In this document: piece by piece, positions 1,306 to 51,706 of the stretch
Position numbering within the stretch: the stretch's first letter is position 1
How the letters are laid out: the number at the start of each line of letters is the position of its first letter
NCBI GenBank assembly: GCA_018241765.1
Contig: JAFEDD010000019.1
Coordinates: 1 to 55,522 of the forward strand
Source of the DNA: Pseudomonadota bacterium
Lineage (GTDB): Bacteria; Pseudomonadota; Gammaproteobacteria; Burkholderiales; Casimicrobiaceae
DNA length: 55,522 nt
Direction of reading: 5' to 3'
The notes under the pieces: model-generated
Database searches by the model: none
Told to the model about the DNA's origin: nothing
What the model saw: only the letters and a program-made list of their open reading frames with translations
Program-made: the position numbers and the translations under genes

Positions 1306-2346
1306 ATGAGCGACGCCGCCACACCCCCCGTCCGTCCGCCCTCGGGCGCCAAGTTCGTCACGCCGGAGGGCACCCGTGCCGTGATGGATGGGTTGCGCCC
1401 GAGCGAACTCACGCAGGTGCCCGACGTCGGCAGCAAGCCCGCTTGGCTGCGGGTGCGGCTGCCGACCGGCGCGAAATATCAGGAAGTCGCCGAGATCGTG
1501 CGCACGCACCGGCTGTCCACCGTGTGCGCCGAATCGAAGTGCCCGAACATCGCCGAGTGCTGGGGGCGCGGCACCGCCACGCTGATGCTGATGGGCTCGG
1601 TGTGCACCCGCGCGTGCAAGTTCTGCTCGGTCAACACCGGCAACCCGCACGGCTGGCTGGACGCGAACGAGCCGGCCAGCGTGGCCGACGCCGTCGCGCT
1701 GATGGGGCTCAGGTACGTCGTGCTGACCTCGGTCGACCGCGACGACCTGCCCGACCTCGGTGCCGGCCACTACGCACGCTGCATCCGGGCCATCCATGAG
1801 CGCACGCCGGAGACGGCGGTCGAGGCGCTGACGCCCGACTTTCAGGGGCGGCATGATCTCGTCGCCCAGGTGCTCGACGCCGGGCTCGCCACCTATGCGC
1901 AAAACCTCGAAACCGTGCGCCGGCTGACGCATCCGGTGCGCGATGCCCGTGCAGGGTACGAGCAGACCCTCGACGTGCTGCGCTTCGCCAAGAGCCATGC
2001 GCCGCAGACCGTCGTCAAGACCAGCCTCATGCTCGGATTGGGCGAGCGTGACGACGAGATCGAGGAGGCGTTCGTCGACCTGCGCGCCGCCAACGTCGAT
2101 GTCGTCACGCTGGGGCAGTACATGCGCCCCACCAAAAATCACCTGCCGGTGGCGCGCTTCGTCACGCCCGACGAATTCGCGCGGTATCGCGAGATTGCGC
2201 TCGGCATGGGCTTTCTCGAAGTCGTCTCCGGGCCGCTGGTGCGCTCGAGCTATCGCGCCGAGCGGGTGCTCGAAGGCAACAACGTCGGGCTGGAGCCCAC
2301 GCTCGCCGCCATCCGCGAGTCGGCCACGGCATCGCTGCGCTGCTGA
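1306..2346 (+). CDS. lipA: Lipoyl synthase
   Basis: 346 aa radical-SAM enzyme that inserts two sulfurs into octanoyl groups on lipoyl domains of 2-oxoacid dehydrogenases and GcvH. Both iron-sulfur clusters are visible: the auxiliary cluster C74/C79/C85 ([12 protein letters not shown]) and the radical-SAM CxxxCxxC C100/C104/C107 (CTRACKFC). The C-terminal RSSYRA motif supplies the serine ligand of the auxiliary cluster. Length is slightly above the usual 320-330 aa because of an N-terminal proline-rich extension. An AGAGG sequence about ten bases upstream supports the ATG. In many proteobacteria lipA follows lipB; lipB is not adjacent here. A hairpin immediately follows the stop. Confidence 0.97.
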
Positions 2347-2631: not shown

Positions 2632-2693
2632 GGGGCGGTTCTATCACGGCGGGAGGGGTGGTGATAAGGAACGCACCTTCGAACAGGATTCCG

Positions 2694-3114
2694 GAGAAGC
2701 CCGCGCCTGCCTGTCGTCGGCGACGGCTTGACGTCGCTTCTCGTGCGTCGCTTGCAAGCAAGCGCGGTCAAGCCCGCGCCTACGGGGGGCGTATGAGCGC
2801 GGAGAAGCCCGCGCCTGCCTGTCGTAGGCGACGGCTTGACGTCACTTCTCGTGCGTCGCTTGCAAGCAAGCGCGGTCAAGCCCGCGCCTACGGGGGGCGT
2901 ATGAGCGCGGAGAAGCCCGCGCCTGCCTGTGGTAGGCGACGGCTTGACGTCGCTTCTCGTGCGTCGCTTGCAAGCAAGCGCGGTCAAGCCCGCGCCTACG
3001 GGGGGGGCGTATGAGCGCGGAGAAGCCCGCGCCTGCCTGTCGTAGGCGACGGCTTGACGTCGCTTCTCGTGCGTCGCTTGCAAGCAAGCGCGGTCAAGCG
3101 CGCGCCTACGGGGG
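2694..3114. repeat. Four-unit 108-bp tandem repeat, each unit a long hairpin
   Basis: Four near-identical head-to-tail units start at 2694, 2802, 2910 and 3020 with periods 108, 108 and 110. Each unit contains 18-nt inverted arms matching 16/18. In unit 2 these are 2823-2840 (CGTAGGCGACGGCTTGAC) and 2875-2892 (GTCAAGCCCGCGCCTACG), around a 34-nt loop holding the palindrome GCTTGCAAGC. Unit 1 has a mutated left arm (CGTCGGCG). Several frames stay open through the array only because the sequence repeats. This resembles REP/BIME-type intergenic hairpin repeats; no RAYT-type transposase gene is present in the window. Confidence 0.9.
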
Positions 3115-3160
3115 ATCGCTTCCGCGAGTTCCGTCGTGTCTCGGGAAGCCTCCTAACCCA

Positions 3161-3283
3161 AACAACTCCAACGCGCAACCCGCATCCACAACAGGCTTGC
3201 AGCGCAATTTGGCCAAAACTCGACTTTTGATGAAATGGCGTGTGAAGCCCGTTATGGACGTCATTTGACGAAAAAGTTGATTG
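3161..3283 (+). repeat. Dispersed ~120-bp palindromic element, copy A
   Basis: Imperfect palindrome with left half ACCCGCATCCACAAC-AGGCTTG, right half AAGCCCGTTATGGACGTC ending in AAAAAGTTGAT, and a central AACTCGACTTTT. It aligns with three other copies at 4328, 16012 and 51522. It lies directly upstream of the LexA box and start of imuA. Confidence 0.8.
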
Positions 3284-3327
3284 CCTTTTTGAGGTGAGGG
3301 CAGGGCTACGGCATGGCGTTGGGTATA

Positions 3328-3343
3328 CTGTATCGATATACAG
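3328..3343. promoter_or_regulatory. LexA box (SOS operator) of imuA
   Basis: CTGTATCGATATACAG is a perfect CTGT-N8-ACAG palindrome within tatactg...cagt, matching the Escherichia coli-type LexA operator. It ends 12 bases before the imuA ATG, where bound repressor would block transcription. Confidence 0.93.
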
Positions 3344-3355
3344 TTTACGATACCC

Positions 3356-4264
3356 ATGCCGTCCGCCGTTGCCTCAATCTCAGTCGCTGCCGCTGTCACA
3401 TCCGCTGCGCGGGGGGATGAGGGCGCGTTGCGCTCGCTGGTGGGGGCGGGGGTGGCGCAGGGGCAGGGGGGTCTGAGCAGCGGCTTTGCGGCGCTCGATG
3501 CGCAGTTGCCTTGGCATGGCTGGCCGTGCGGGGCGATGACGGAGCTTTTCGTCGATGGCTGCGGGCGCGGCGAGCTGTCGTTGCTGCTACCGGCGCTGGC
3601 GCGGTGCAGTGCGCAGGGCGGGCGCATCGTCGTGGTGGCGCCGCCGCATGGGCTCTACGGGCCGGCGCTGCAACAGGCGGGCGTCGATGCGGCGCGCGTG
3701 CAGCAGGTGCTGTGCGCGGCGCCGGAGGCGGGGGCGGCGCGTCGCGGCAAGGGCCGCCGTGCGCCCGATGCGCTGTGGGCGGCGGAGCAGTGGTTGCGCG
3801 GCGGCGCGGTGGCGGCGTTGCTGCTCTGGAGCCGGCAGTGCCCCGCCGATGCGCTGCGGCGGCTGCAACTGGCGGTGCTGGGGCAGCCGACGGCGTTCTT
3901 CCATTTTCGCCCGCCCGAATGCGCAGCCAACCCGTCGCCGGCCTGGTTGCGCATCGCGCTCGACAGCGACCATCGCGAGCTGCGGCTGCGCTGGATCAAG
4001 TGCCGTGGCCGCTGGCTCGCGCGGCCGCTGCTGACGCTCGACCGCGCCGAAGTGCAGGCGCCGGTGTATCGGCAATGGCGCGGCAACGCCCGCCTCGATC
4101 ACCTCGTGCGCCACGGCGTCGACCACGCCGCTGCGGCGCAGGCGGCGATGCGGGACGGGGAGGTGGTCAGGGCGTCACGTGTCGTGTCGGCAGAGCGTCC
4201 CCAGGCGCCGGAAACCGTGGCGACGGCGCAACTGGCAAGCGATGATGCGATGACCGAGCCGTAA
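3356..4264 (+). CDS. imuA: Translesion synthesis-associated protein ImuA (RecA/SulA-like)
   Basis: 302 aa. ImuA proteins are RecA-like proteins that support the ImuB-DnaE2 mutasome during damage-induced mutagenesis. Family features visible here are the opening LSSGFAALDAQLPWHGWPCG, a degenerate P-loop region (TELFVDGCGRGELSLLLPAL), IVVVAPP, LLLWSRQCPADALRRLQLA, and the C-terminal LRIALDSDHRELRLRWIKCR. A canonical Walker A GxxGxGKT is absent, as usual for the family. The ATG at 3356 sits 12 bases after a LexA box. In most betaproteobacteria imuA and imuB are tightly packed under one operator. Here about 345 bases separate them, filled by a repeat and a second LexA box. Confidence 0.92.
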   Translation: MPSAVASISVAAAVTSAARGDEGALRSLVGAGVAQGQGGLSSGFAALDAQLPWHGWPCGAMTELFVDGCGRGELSLLLPALARCSAQGGRIVVVAPPHGLYGPALQQAGVDAARVQQVLCAAPEAGAARRGKGRRAPDALWAAEQWLRGGAVAALLLWSRQCPADALRRLQLAVLGQPTAFFHFRPPECAANPSPAWLRIALDSDHRELRLRWIKCRGRWLARPLLTLDRAEVQAPVYRQWRGNARLDHLVRHGVDHAAAAQAAMRDGEVVRASRVVSAERPQAPETVATAQLASDDAMTEP

Positions 4265-4327
4265 AACGCGCCATGCCACGACGCCCGGATACGGGGGCGT
4301 GTTCGTGGAGTGTCCACAGAAATTCGT

Positions 4328-4450
4328 CATCAACTTAAAAATGAAACCCGCATCCACAACGGGCTTGGCGCTCGATTATGCCGAAAGTCGACATATTGGA
4401 AAATCGCGCTCCAAGCCCGTCATAGACGCCATTTTCTTGAAAAGTTGATG
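4328..4450 (+). repeat. Dispersed ~120-bp palindromic element, copy B
   Basis: Begins with CATCAACTT (4328-4336) and ends with its exact reverse complement AAGTTGATG (4442-4450). The inner arms are ACCCGCATCCACAACGGGCT and CCAAGCCCGTCATAGACGCC, with a central AAAGTCGAC. It lies between imuA and imuB, with its TTGAT motif at the same 51-base distance from the LexA box as in copy A. Confidence 0.85.
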
Positions 4451-4495
4451 CCGTTTTGAAGGGAGGTGCGGGCGGTTTTTGTGGCGTTGGGTATA

Positions 4496-4511
4496 CTGTA
4501 TTGATATACAG
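4496..4511. promoter_or_regulatory. Second LexA box, in front of imuB
   Basis: CTGTATTGATATACAG differs from the imuA operator at one spacer base. The preceding bases GGCGTTGGGTATA are identical at both sites. It indicates a separate SOS promoter for imuB-dnaE2. Confidence 0.92.
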
Positions 4512-4514
4512 GTC

Positions 4515-4598
4515 ATGCTCATGTCGCTCGTTGTCTTTCTGTCGTTGGCTGCTGCTTCGTCCGCCGTGCGGGCGGGTGCCGTGGCGGCGTGGCGTTGA
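4515..4598 (+). other. Vestigial leader reading frame upstream of imuB
   Basis: A 27-codon frame starting 3 bases after the second LexA box and ending at a TGA 12 bases before the imuB ATG, in the same frame as imuB. Its peptide (MLMSLVVFLSLAAASSAVRA...) weakly resembles the imuA N-terminus (MPSAVASISVAAAVTSAARG), and the DNA aligns over roughly 50 bases with a small gap. It may be a remnant of a duplicated imuA 5' end or a chance leader frame. Translation is unproven. Confidence 0.35.
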
Positions 4599-4610
4599 GC
4601 GGGGTGGGGC

Positions 4611-6077
4611 ATGCGCTGGCTTGCGTTGTATCTGCCCGCTCTGCCATTGCAGGCGTTTTCGCGGCCGCTGGTGGAGCATGGCCCGGTGGCGGTGTTTGCC
4701 GACGATGGGCGGCGTTCGCGCATCGTGGCGCGCAACCGGGCTGCGGCGCGGCTCGGGGTGCGGCCGTGGCTGACGCTGGCCGAGGCGCACGCGCTGGCGC
4801 GGGATCTGCTGACGCTGCCGCGCGAGCGCTCGCGCGAGCAGGCGTTGCTGCGGCGGCTGGCGCTGGCGCTGACGCCGCTGACGCCGAACATCCATATCGA
4901 TGCGGACTACGGGTTGTTGCTCGAGGTGGGCGCTTCGTTGCGGCTGTTCGGCGGCGCGGCGGCGCTGCTGGCCGAGGCGCTGCGCCGGGTGGAGGCGAAC
5001 GCGGCGAGCGCACATGCGGTGTTGGCGCCGACGGCGCTGGCGGCGCGCTGGCTCGGGCGCACGCAGCGCTCGTTGTGTCTGGAGACACCGGCCGAGGCAG
5101 CGGCGTGGCTCGATGATCTCGCCATCGGTCACGCCGATTGGTCGCCCGCGTTGCTGACGGCCCTGCGATCGCTCGGGCTGCATGTGCTGCGCGAGGTGCG
5201 GGCGCTGCCGTCGGCGGCGCTGCGCCAGCGCTTCGGCGAGGCGCTGACGATGCCGCTCGCGCAGGCCTATGGCGAGGCGCCGCTGATGCTGCCGTTCTGG
5301 TCGCCGCCCGACGCGTTCGCCGAGCATGTCGAGTTTGCCGAGCCGGTGACCGAGGCGGGCCAGTGGATGCCGGGCGTGACGACGCTGCTCGAGCGCTTGC
5401 AGTGCTTTCTCGAAGCGCGGGCGTCGGTGACGACGGCGATCCGGCTGCATTGGAGCGCCGGGCGTCGCCACGGCACGGCGATCACGCTCGAGGCCGGGCA
5501 GCCGTTGCGCGAAGCGCAGCACTGGCAGCGGCTGCTCGCCGCGCGGCTCGAACGCGAGCCGGTGCCGCACGAAGTCTCGCGCATCGAGCTGCATTGCACG
5601 CAGATCGAGGTGGCCGGCGGCCACGTCGATGATCTCTTCGAGCGCAGCGGCCAGCGCGAGCGGCAGGGGCAGGCGCTGGGCGCCGTGCTGCGGGCGCGGC
5701 TGGGCGAGGCGGCGCTGCGCGCGCCGCATCAGCCGCACGGCCCGCTGCCGGAGTCGCGGGCGGTGGAGGCGGAGGCACCTGCGCCGATGCCCGCATCGAT
5801 GCCTGACCAAGCGGCGCCGGAGCCCGCCGCCATCGACGTGCGCCCGACCTGGCTCATCGAGCCGCCGCGCCGTTTGAGCGAGCGCGAGTTGCGTGGACTG
5901 CTGCCGCAATTGCCGCTGCGCACGCCCGAGCGGCTGCGCGAGGATTGGTCGCAGCCGGAAGGGGCACCGCCCGCCGAGCGCGATTACTACGTCGCGCGCA
6001 CGCCGGATGCGCGGCTGTGGTGGGTGTTCCGCGAGCGTGCGGGCAACGCCTGGTTTCTGCACGGCGTGTTCGGTTGA
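4611..6077 (+). CDS. imuB: Translesion synthesis protein ImuB (catalytically dead Y-family polymerase homologue)
   Basis: 488 aa. ImuB is the hub of the mutasome, contacting the beta clamp, ImuA and DnaE2. The N-terminus MRWLALYLPALPLQAFSRP occupies the position of the Y-family active-site strand but lacks its acidic residues, consistent with a non-catalytic role. A palm-like block follows (LTPNIHIDADYGLLLEVGAS, LRLFGG), then a helix-hairpin and little-finger-like region. The C-terminal domain ends RDYYVARTPDARLWWVFRER ... WFLHGVFG, typical of ImuB. Q433-L-P-L-R is a possible but imperfect clamp-binding motif, lacking the usual terminal aromatic. Only four bases separate the stop from the dnaE2 start, so the two are translationally linked. 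Confidence 0.93.
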   Translation: MRWLALYLPALPLQAFSRPLVEHGPVAVFADDGRRSRIVARNRAAARLGVRPWLTLAEAHALARDLLTLPRERSREQALLRRLALALTPLTPNIHIDADYGLLLEVGASLRLFGGAAALLAEALRRVEANAASAHAVLAPTALAARWLGRTQRSLCLETPAEAAAWLDDLAIGHADWSPALLTALRSLGLHVLREVRALPSAALRQRFGEALTMPLAQAYGEAPLMLPFWSPPDAFAEHVEFAEPVTEAGQWMPGVTTLLERLQCFLEARASVTTAIRLHWSAGRRHGTAITLEAGQPLREAQHWQRLLAARLEREPVPHEVSRIELHCTQIEVAGGHVDDLFERSGQRERQGQALGAVLRARLGEAALRAPHQPHGPLPESRAVEAEAPAPMPASMPDQAAPEPAAIDVRPTWLIEPPRRLSERELRGLLPQLPLRTPERLREDWSQPEGAPPAERDYYVARTPDARLWWVFRERAGNAWFLHGVFG

Positions 6078-6081
6078 ACTC

Positions 6082-9000
6082 ATGTTGCCGGTCTACGCCG
6101 AACTCTTCTGCCGCAGCAACTTCAGCTTCGGGGTGGGCGCTTCGCACACCGAGGAACTGGTGGCGCGGGCGCACGCGCTCGGCTATCGCGCGCTCGCGCT
6201 CACCGACGAGGCTTCGCTCGCCGGCATCGTCCGCGCCTGGAGCGCCGCGCGCTCGCTGCCGTCGCAAGCCGCAGGCGAGCGCTGTCGGCTGCTGACCGGC
6301 GTGAGCTTCGTGCTGGGCGAGCAGCGCCGCGACAGCGCGCCCGAGGCCGCGCCGGGCGCACGCGTGGTGCTGCTGGCGCACACGCGACGCGGCTATGGCG
6401 ATCTCGCAGCGCTGATCAGCCGCACGCGGCAGCGGGTGGCGAAGGGTGGCTATCGACTCGAACTCGATGACTTCGCCGCCGTGGCCGAGTGCTCGGCGCT
6501 GATCGTGCCTGCGGCTACCGGCGATGGCGCGACGACGGCGGCGCTGCTCGAGGCCTGCGCGCATCTGCCGCGCACGCTCGGCTACAGCCGTCTGCTGCGC
6601 GCCGACGATGGCATCCGCGCCGAGGTGCTGCTCGCGCTGTCGCGGCGGCACCGGCTGCCGATCGCCGCCTGCGGCGATGTGCTGATGCACGAGCCTTCGC
6701 GCAAGCCGCTGCACGATGTGCTGACCGCCGTGCGTCTGGGCACCACGGTGGCGGCGCTCGGGCCACGCATGAGCGCCAACGCCGAGCGCGTGCTGCGGCC
6801 GCTGCCGGCGCTGGCCGCGCTGTACCCAGCCGAATGGCTGCTCGAGAGCGTGAACGTCGCCGAGCGCTGCACGTTCACGCTCGACATGCTGCGCTACGAA
6901 TACCCCGAGGAAATCGTGCCGCCGGGGATGACGCCGAGCGACTATCTGCGCGGGGAGACGTGGGCCGGCGCCCGCCGCCGCTATGGCGACGCGATTGCGC
7001 CGTCGGTCGCCGCGCTCATCGAGAAGGAACTCGCGCTGATTGCCGAACTGCGCTATGAGGCGTACTTCCTGACCGTGTACGACATCGTGCGCTTCGCCCG
7101 CGCCCAGGGCATCCTGTGTCAGGGCCGGGGCTCGGCCGCCAACTCCGCCGTGTGCTATTGCCTGCACATCACCGAGGTCGACCCGGCGCGCATGAACATG
7201 CTCTTCGAGCGCTTCGTGTCGAAAGAGCGCAACGAACCGCCCGACATCGATGTCGATTTCGAGCACCAGCGCCGCGAGGAGGTGATCCAGTACATCTACC
7301 GCAAGTACGGCCGCGAGCGTGCGGCGCTGTGCGCGAGCGTCACCACCTATCGGCGCAAGGGCGCGCTGCGCGACGTCGGCCGCGCGCTCGGCTTCGCGCC
7401 CGATCAGCTCGATCGCATCAGCGGCAACCTGAGCCGCTGGGACGGCCGCGAGGACACCGCGACGCGCCTCGAAGAGCTCGGCTTCGACGGGCAGAGCCGC
7501 AAGGTGCGGCAACTGGTTGCGCTGGCCGGCGAGCTCGAAGGCTTTCCGCGTCACCTGTCGCAGCATCCGGGCGGCTTCGTCATCGCCCGCGAGCGGCTCG
7601 ACCGTCTGGTGCCGATCGAGGACGCGGCGATGCCCGAGCGCACCGTGATCCAGTGGGACAAGGACGACATCGACGCGCTCGGCCTGATGAAGGTCGACGT
7701 GCTCGGCCTCGGCATGCTGAGCTGCATCCGTCGCGCACTCGCGCTGGTCGGCGCAGCGCTCGGCCGCACGCCGCAGCGCCCCTTCACGCTCACTGACATC
7801 CCGCCGGAAGACCCGGCCGTCTACGACATGCTCTGCCGTGGCGAGAGCACCGGCGTGTTCCAGATCGAATCGCGGGCGCAGATGAACATGCTGCCGCGGC
7901 TCAGGCCGCGCAACTACTTCGATCTCGTCGTCGAGGTCGCCATCGTGCGGCCGGGGCCGATTCAGGGCGGCATGGTGCATCCCTACCTGAAGCGTCGGCA
8001 GGGCCTCGAAGCGGCGAGCTATCCGAGCGCGGCGGTGAAGGCGGTGCTCGAGCGCACGCTCGGCATCCCGATTTTTCAGGAGCAGGTCATGCAGCTCGCG
8101 ATGGTGGCGGCCGGCTTCAGCGCCGGCGAAGCGGACCAGTTGCGCCGCGCGATGGCCGCCTGGAAGCGGCAGGGCGGGCTCGGGCACCTGAAGGACAAGC
8201 TCACGCGCGGCATGCTCGCCAACGGCTACCGGCCCGAGTTCGCCGAGGCGATCTATCGCCAGATCGAAGGCTTCGCCACCTACGGCTTTCCGGAGTCGCA
8301 TGCCGCGAGCTTCGCGCTTCTGGTCTATGCCTCGGCGTGGCTCAAGTGCCACCATCCGGCCGCGTTCTGCGCCGCGCTGCTCAACAGCCAGCCGATGGGT
8401 TTCTATTCGCCCTCGCAGCTCATTCAGGACGCGCGCCGCGCTGGCGTCACCGTGCTCGCCATCGATGTGCTGCAAAGCACGTGGGAGGCGCATCTCGTGC
8501 TGCCGCCGCGGGCGGCGGATGGGGATGGCGGTGCGCCGATGCTGCGGCTCGGGCTGCAACAGGTGGCGGGGTTGCCCGAGGCGGCGGGGCGACGCATCGA
8601 CGCGGCGCGTGCGGTGCGGCAGTTTCGCAGCGTGCGCGACCTGCTCGAACGGGCCGCGCTCGGGCGCGACGAGGCGGCGCTCCTCGCCCGCGCCGATGCG
8701 CTGCGCGAGCTTGCCGGGCATCGCCATCAGGCGCTGTGGAGCGCTGCGCTCGCCGCCGTGCCGGCGTTGCCGCTGGCGCCGCCCGACACCGAGACGCCAC
8801 CGGCGCTGGCGCCGCTCGCGCCCGGCGAAGAGGTGCTGGCCGACTACGCGAGCACCGGCCTCACGTTGCGTGAGCACCCACTCTCGCTGCTTCGCCCGCA
8901 ACTCAGCGGCGTCTGTCGCGCCGCCGATCTCGCTGGTCTCACCTCCGGCCGCCGCGTCCGCGTGGCGGGGCTGGTCACCTGTCGGCAACGACCCGCCACG

Positions 9001-9231
9001 GCGAGCGGCGTCACCTTCGTCACGCTCGAGGACGAAAGCGGCAACAGCAACATCATCGTGTGGCGCGATGTCGCCGAGCGCGACCGCCGCGTGCTGCTGA
9101 CGGCGCGACTGATGCTCGTCACCGGCACGCTCGAGCGGCAAGGGCCGGTCACCCACCTCATCGCCGCACGGCTCGACGACCGCAGCGAGCTGATCGGCTC
9201 GCTCGCCGTGGCGAGCCATGATTTCCATTGA
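6082..9231 (+). CDS. dnaE2: Error-prone DNA polymerase DnaE2 (ImuC)
   Basis: 1049 aa C-family polymerase performing mutagenic translesion synthesis. An N-terminal PHP domain starts [18 protein letters not shown]. The catalytic centre shows [20 protein letters not shown] (aspartates near residues 388-390) and the third aspartate in [12 protein letters not shown] (near 538). Other family blocks are [35 protein letters not shown] and [14 protein letters not shown]. The C-terminal part carries the OB domain ([28 protein letters not shown]). Length fits DnaE2 (about 1030-1090 aa) rather than replicative DnaE1 (about 1160). The ATG at 6082 lies 4 bases after imuB, giving the order imuA-imuB-dnaE2 under LexA control. 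Confidence 0.97.
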   Translation: [1049 protein letters not shown]

Positions 9232-15979: not shown

Positions 15980-16011
15980 GGGCGTGGAGGATAACCCTCG
16001 CCGTCTTGGAT

Positions 16012-16132
16012 CATCAGCTTTTCACGTCAAGGCGCATCTACAACGGGCTTGGCGGCACGAATCACGAAAAGTCGACTTTTGGTGAAATCGCGCTCTGAGC
16101 CCGTTTTGAATGCGGGTTTCACTCAAAAGATG
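16012..16132 (+). repeat. Dispersed ~120-bp palindromic element, copy C
   Basis: Starts CATCAGCTTTTCACG and ends with the corresponding AAAAGATG. The inner arms are GCATCTACAACGGGCTTGGC and GAGCCCGTTTTGAATGCGGG, and the centre is the perfect palindrome AAAAGTCGACTTTT. It lies just upstream of gshB. There is no LexA box next to this copy. Confidence 0.82.
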
Positions 16133-16228
16133 TAGGGCAATTTGGTGGTCGTTGCGACGGCTTTTCGTCCCCGGCAACGGCGAAAAACCGTAAGTATTTG
16201 ATTTTCAAGGAAAACTCACGCCGACACG

Positions 16229-51471: not shown

Positions 51472-51521
51472 CCGGGCGCGGCGACCCGTCGTCACCGTGG
51501 CATGTTCAGCACGTTCCGAAC

Positions 51522-51646
51522 GATTGGCTTTTCGTTGAAAGCCGCATCCATGACGGGCTCCACGGCCAATTCATGCGTGTCTCGACTTTTGGCGATATCA
51601 AGCGCCAAGCCCGTTGTGGATGCGGGTTCCAGCAAAAAGCTGATGC
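51522..51646 (-). repeat. Dispersed ~120-bp palindromic element, copy D
   Basis: The conserved arm is on the right: CAAGCCCGTTGTGGATGCGG followed by AAAAAGCTGATGC. The diverged arm on the left is ATTGGCTTTT then GCCGCATCCATGACGGGCT, and the centre is CTCGACTTTTGG. It is therefore inverted relative to copies A-C. It lies between the convergent ends of the lipoprotein gene and acuI. Confidence 0.82.
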
Positions 51647-51706
51647 ATCCCGTTGGGGGGATGGTCCGGCGCGGAGCGCGCGCCGGAGCGTTCGCCGATC
51701 CGGCGC

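Follow-up and report, generated by a model that had tools for sequence, protein, structure and literature searches.

Contiguous cassettes encoding ImuA, ImuB, and DnaE2, proteins that are thought to act together, usually have one LexA site for all three genes. The imu operon in the stretch of bacterial DNA analyzed here (55,522 nucleotides in full, hereafter the window) carries two LexA-type boxes, one before imuA and one between imuA and imuB, raising the question of where the second site came from and whether it provides imuB and dnaE2 with a promoter of their own. The original prediction for this locus answered that a block of about 180 bases, made up of a palindromic repeat, a spacer, and an operator, had been duplicated, placing a second SOS promoter within the operon, which could free ImuB/DnaE2 dosage from that of ImuA. 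Below we examine the operator, spacer, downstream leader, and palindrome in turn, and compare the locus with other imu loci and with known repeat classes.

The imu operon and its second LexA box

The genes of the window run in the order lipA, imuA, imuB, dnaE2, all on the + strand (Table 1), and imuB ends 4 nt before the start of dnaE2. In gene order, in protein families, and in the LexA-type box before imuA the locus is like the LexA-regulated imuA-imuB-dnaE2 cassette: the three genes are adjacent and codirectional, an operator of LexA type precedes the first of them, and the genome encodes lexA (LexA DNA-binding domain at G000:C55:75881-76075), with a box of its own (CACTGTATCTATTTACAG) 32 nt ahead of the domain match. 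It differs from the usual cassette by what has been added between imuA and imuB, namely a second LexA box, a leader ORF, and a palindrome; possession of one operator is the usual state of a contiguous cassette without being strictly defining. The gap between imuA and imuB is 346 nt, as against 10-178 nt in the 12 same-genus loci for which both ORFs were listed and did not overlap. The imuB product is 42-49% identical to those of the twelve nearest same-genus loci and at most 50% identical to that of any relative. Because ImuA and ImuB of the window both find their best matches within their own genus, imuA is not a foreign replacement.

Table 1. Features of the imu region, in window coordinates
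Feature	Position	Strand	Details
lipA	1306-2346	+	
E1, palindromic repeat upstream of imuA	3159-3287	+	RNA-model match 127.3 bits, model 1-129/129
Spacer copy 1	3282-3314	+	33 nt, element to operator core
Operator core 1	3315-3343	+	GGCGTTGGGTATA + LexA box CTGTATCGATATACAG (3328-3343)
imuA	3356-4264	+	302 aa; NCBIfam NF033429 ImuA_translesion, 166.8 bits (cut-off 150)
E2, second repeat copy	4327-4455	+	RNA-model match 126.0 bits, model 1-129/129
Spacer copy 2	4450-4482	+	33 nt
Operator core 2	4483-4511	+	GGCGTTGGGTATA + LexA box CTGTATTGATATACAG (4496-4511)
Leader ORF	4515-4598	+	27 codons; putative remnant of the start of a second imuA
imuB	4611-6077	+	488 aa; Pfam IMS, 27.9 bits (cut-off 23.2)
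dnaE2 (imuC)	6082-9231	+	1049 aa; NCBIfam NF004225 error-prone DNA polymerase, 1404.2 bits (cut-off 939)

Perfect CTGT-N8-ACAG boxes stand before both imuA and imuB, as had been claimed, and the claimed common 13-base context, GGCGTTGGGTATA, lies immediately to the left of each (3315-3327 and 4483-4495); the two 16-bp boxes differ solely within the central N8. The CTGT-N8-ACAG pattern has exactly two sites in the 55.5-kb window, against 0.32 expected from shuffles (two or more sites in 6 of 100 shuffles). Elsewhere in the 3.24-Mb assembly the 13-base context is absent at 0 or 1 mismatches and has 16 sites at 2 mismatches, and among 399 genomes of the order the 29-nt operator core, with up to 3 mismatches allowed, was found in one genome, solely at these two places. 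We predict that both cores should be LexA sites.

To place the second box among imu loci at large, 72 loci were assembled (43 from named genomes, 29 unnamed), and the 65 with adjacent imuA and imuB were scanned (n = 7 dropped: L031, L033, L037, L038, L044, L080, and L086), a box being called if strict or if matching at least 15 of 20 positions of a LexA consensus. A box between imuA and imuB was seen in 0 of these 65 other loci, several of which come from close species and are not independent. Before imuA, a box was present in 39 of the 65 (38 called by script plus L068, which fell outside the script's bounds); in the remaining 26 none was seen there either, so other operator types would escape the scan. 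Within the genus, ImuB was found in 15 of 16 other genomes, and each of the 15 same-genus loci has one box-like site before imuA (11 strict, 4 approximate), none of them preceded by GGCGTTGGG. L076 carries an extra strict box, which lies ~570 nt upstream and outside the imuA-imuB gap. In nine of the same-genus loci (within L065-L074) the imuA ATG lies 1-2 nt 3' of the LexA box, which suggests that the imuA mRNA of those loci is very short-leadered or leaderless.

The proposal of a second SOS promoter between imuA and imuB is therefore borne out as regards a LexA-type site at a position where such sites are uncommon (0 of 65), and the promoter activity of that site is predicted from sequence. 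A consensus scan found no sigma-70-like promoter on the + strand at either box. A search for intrinsic terminators between imuA and imuB gave none on the + strand; on the - strand it gave two terminator-like sites, where 2.0 were expected.

Alignment of the two blocks and the leader ORF

The two blocks are colinear at a constant offset of 1168. At this offset, ungapped identity is 86/121 in the element, 14/33 in the spacer, and 29/30 in the core, and it is 35/100 in the flank after the box and 32/100 in the flank before the element. The TTGAT motif begins at 3277 and 4445, exactly 51 bases upstream of each box as first reported, and AAGTTGAT and GGCGTTGGG are separated by 33 nt in both blocks. 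In the best gapped alignment of the spacers, 20 of 25 columns agree, the rest being 3 mismatches and 2 one-base gaps; the score of this alignment was attained by 15 of 2000 shuffles and by none of 22,196 other windows in the 55 kb, apart from self-overlapping ones and the imuA spacer. Pairwise alignment, which the original prediction had named as its check, hence yields a match that goes beyond the box. In a BLAST search, other copies of the element cease to match by window position 3290 at the latest, and an alignment of 18 other copies shows the spacer and operator to be common to the imu pair only. As judged from these alignments, it is the spacer and operator core, not the palindrome, that tie the two blocks together. 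The duplication of a block of ~180 bases accordingly stands for the operator region; the palindrome is a dispersed repeat (see below) and is no proof of block copying, and on the other side the homology may extend ~85 nt past the box into the imuA start, which the comparisons suggest but do not settle.

The position and near-identity of the second core would also suit a mainly repressive role, a double lock in which LexA at site 2 chiefly stops leaky transcription arriving from imuA, so that imuB-dnaE2 stays silent in undamaged cells, and any promoter activity of its own is secondary. Site 2 lies within the transcribed path from imuA to imuB, its core is 29/30 identical to the first, and neither site has recognizable sigma-70 hexamers on the + strand; but the 13 bases left of the box are identical as well, as expected if promoter parts had been kept, and we consider this explanation unlikely.

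Downstream of box 2, the leader ORF contains two in-frame ATGs, one at 4515, which follows the box by 3 nt, and one at 4521, which follows it by 9 nt; the present imuA ATG is 12 nt 3' of box 1, and in 9 of 15 relatives it follows the box by the 1-2 nt noted above. Read from 4521 (MSLVVFLSLAAASSAVR), the leader can be fitted without gaps to seven same-genus ImuA N-termini, while read from 4515 it fits the relatives' N-termini poorly. The start codon, the length, and the relatives for the test of this fit were all chosen post hoc; 7 of 15 relatives were used, L070 and L073-L079 being omitted from the profile for N-termini unlike in length or sequence. Over 17 residues, 5 of 20,000 shuffles were as good and the leader stood alone among 8,760 ATG windows; over 12 residues, 60 of 20,000 shuffles and 2 other windows equaled it, and over 23 residues, 29 of 20,000 shuffles and 15 other windows did so. 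Against the N-terminus of the present ImuA, itself a poor fit to the relatives, 70 of 5000 shuffles and 19 of 8,760 windows were as good. At the DNA level, the score of the leader against the 5' end of imuA was attained by 1 of 2000 shuffles and was equaled at 4 other places in the window and by 3 of 950 other ORF starts. Taken as a whole, we regard the leader as a probable, unproven remnant of a second imuA.

The degree to which the cores have stayed alike bears on whether the second one does anything. At a divergence of 0.31, the probability of at most one change in 30 is 0.0002; for a neutral core 2 facing a fully constrained core 1 it is 0.01-0.04, a range that depends on assumed divergences of 0.2 and 0.155. 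Because of this latter value, that core 2 has been kept by selection is only suggested. The second operator might thus be a leftover of the duplication without an effect of its own, flanked as it is by a diverged element and a broken leader, and the neutral probability of 0.01-0.04 leaves room for such a relic; but a core 29/30 identical amid surroundings where ungapped identity is no more than 14/33 (spacer) and 35/100 (after the box) argues against it, and we hold it to be quite improbable.

A dispersed palindrome beside each operator

The element upstream of each operator is present in the same orientation in both blocks, E2 lying 62 bp 3' of the imuA stop codon. That it might be specific to imu was ruled out, the repeat being dispersed through the genome. 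BLAST with the first block returned 55 matches in the genome, both strands counted, and a model built from 20 copies returned at least 150 matches representing at least 116 distinct places, each 128-130 nt long. A 400-kb sample of the genome, taken at arbitrary positions in contigs known to be large, held 15 places (one cut by the end of a stretch, and one weak and 118 nt long), which scales to ~120 per genome. Two more copies lie in the window at 16007-16140 and 51517-51650.

The repeat has inverted ends, CAACTTTT/AAAAGTTG, arms GGGCTT/AAGCCC, and a GTCGAC center. Within the genus, 11 of 17 genomes have matches to the model, and of 60 genomes sampled from the family, under stricter filters and with 57 candidates scored per genome, 10 matched, all of the same genus. 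In one relative (G001), with 14 places in 220 kb, the consensus retains the skeleton CAGCTTTT, GGGCT, GTCGAC center, GCCC, AAAAGCTG with unchanged spacing. Weak copies were also seen near the imu genes of two relatives: L066 has one past the 3' end of imuB (L066:1366-1493, E 8.5e-5), and L065 has one ahead of the imuA box (L065:3905-4034, E 0.018). According to gene calls from a simple codon-usage caller of our own making, 40 of 43 copies lie outside genes; for the 37 copies with both neighbors called, the neighbors are tandem in 24 cases, convergent in 9, and divergent in 4.

Predicted folds of the four window copies, on both strands and taken with no shuffle baseline, range from -36 to -64 kcal/mol. 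No Rfam match at gathering level was obtained near the imu blocks, and three weak matches to unrelated families (E 0.07-0.98) were taken as chance. The consensus fold has no more than 6 pairs, and a compensatory change was seen at 1, so that covariation gives no support to a role as RNA.

The identity of E1 to E2 is 69%, compared with 64% on average in the family; the two rank 155th of 1,035 pairs among 46 copies, so that their likeness was rejected as proof of block duplication. A mosaic by thirds, with the closer right end expected after unequal crossing over, was likewise rejected, none of the left, middle, and right thirds standing out. Since the palindrome is dispersed and the pair is not specially close, the palindrome match does not prove that a block was copied, and since no third is outstanding either, the element may lie outside the duplicated unit. 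Alternatively, the palindrome could have inserted twice, independently, next to two LexA boxes, with no block duplication. This would agree with a repeat that is common between genes and with the unexceptional closeness of E1 and E2, but is very hard to reconcile with the identical orientation of the elements, whose distance to the box is exactly 51 nt in both cases, with the similarity of the spacers, or with a 13-nt context confined, at 0 or 1 mismatches, to these two places in the assembly.

ERIC elements are palindromic in architecture. At ~127 bp, dispersed, and intergenic, the 129-nt element is similar to RU-1/ERIC of enterobacteria, which are of comparable size with many intergenic copies (RU-1 is 127 bp in the accessible text of PMC2759123); the hosts differ, and the likeness drawn here is one of size and distribution. 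REPINs, in the accessible text of PMC3116915, consist of inverted conserved motifs able to form a hairpin, and the 129-nt element likewise has two inverted motifs with hairpin potential. Copies adjoining a RAYT (Y1_Tnp) gene of the same genome, a further mark of REPINs, were not found: in 17 of the 30 Y1_Tnp loci of the genus, scanned over ~1.5 kb on each side and including both loci of the present genome, the element gave 0 matches at E up to 1, leaving a RAYT as its mover unsupported. In titles and the opening parts of abstracts of the open-licence literature we found no description of the ~129-nt palindrome.

Directly upstream of the imu block, at 2692-3114, is a different repeat, a 110-bp hairpin in four tandem copies. 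Its relatives make up 26 BLAST pieces in a 3.3-kb locus (L190) around a Y1_Tnp gene (G000:C24:7282-7605), one of two such genes in the genome, and the 20-kb loci L148 and L140 contain 36 and 22 more. This tandem repeat looks REPIN-like and, unlike the 129-nt element, does adjoin one Y1_Tnp gene.

Proposed origin and working of a second promoter

According to the accessible text of PMC3901139, imuABC cassettes are LexA-controlled, the cassette of P. putida being under LexA2 control as a single transcription unit, and split loci in which imuA, imuB, and imuC have separate SOS boxes have already been described. In split cassettes such as the mycobacterial imuA'-imuB and dnaE2, parts of the mutasome are, as here, under separate LexA sites (accessible text of PMC3901139 and PMC10421592). 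In contrast to these, the genes of the present locus are contiguous and the extra site lies inside the operon, parting imuA from imuB-dnaE2. The titles and opening parts of abstracts in the open-licence literature yielded no account of an additional LexA site within a contiguous imu cassette.

The explanation that we favor, with moderate confidence, is an operon with two promoters, the usual one before imuA and one derived by duplication before imuB. An old direct duplication would have included the upstream palindrome, or at least its right end, together with the spacer and operator core, and would probably have taken in the first imuA codons. It would most likely have arisen by unequal recombination between two copies of the repeat lying in the same direction on either side of imuA, giving a tandem [operator-imuA] arrangement, after which the redundant second imuA may have decayed to ~27 codons, leaving its LexA promoter before imuB-dnaE2. 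The operator cores would have remained nearly identical as their surroundings diverged. Upon cleavage of LexA both sites would open, and imuB-dnaE2 would consequently be covered both by transcripts starting at its own promoter and by those reading through from imuA across the E2 hairpin.

A broader idea, which we put forward tentatively and as something of a long shot, is that the fixed-length ~129-nt palindrome of this genus serves as a recombination handle that rewires nearby regulation. Here it would have duplicated an SOS promoter together with the 5' part of imuA. The imuB and dnaE2 genes would thereby have gained a LexA promoter of their own, along with a leader peptide built from a fragment of a gene, and the balance between ImuA and the error-prone polymerase could then change in the course of the damage response.

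A palindrome family of near-constant length across species of one genus merits study in itself, and the imu locus offers a readable case of such a dispersed palindrome at the edge of a promoter duplication. Lastly, a LexA site between imuA and imuB would constitute a natural experiment on whether the relative amounts of ImuA, ImuB, and DnaE2 affect damage-induced mutagenesis.
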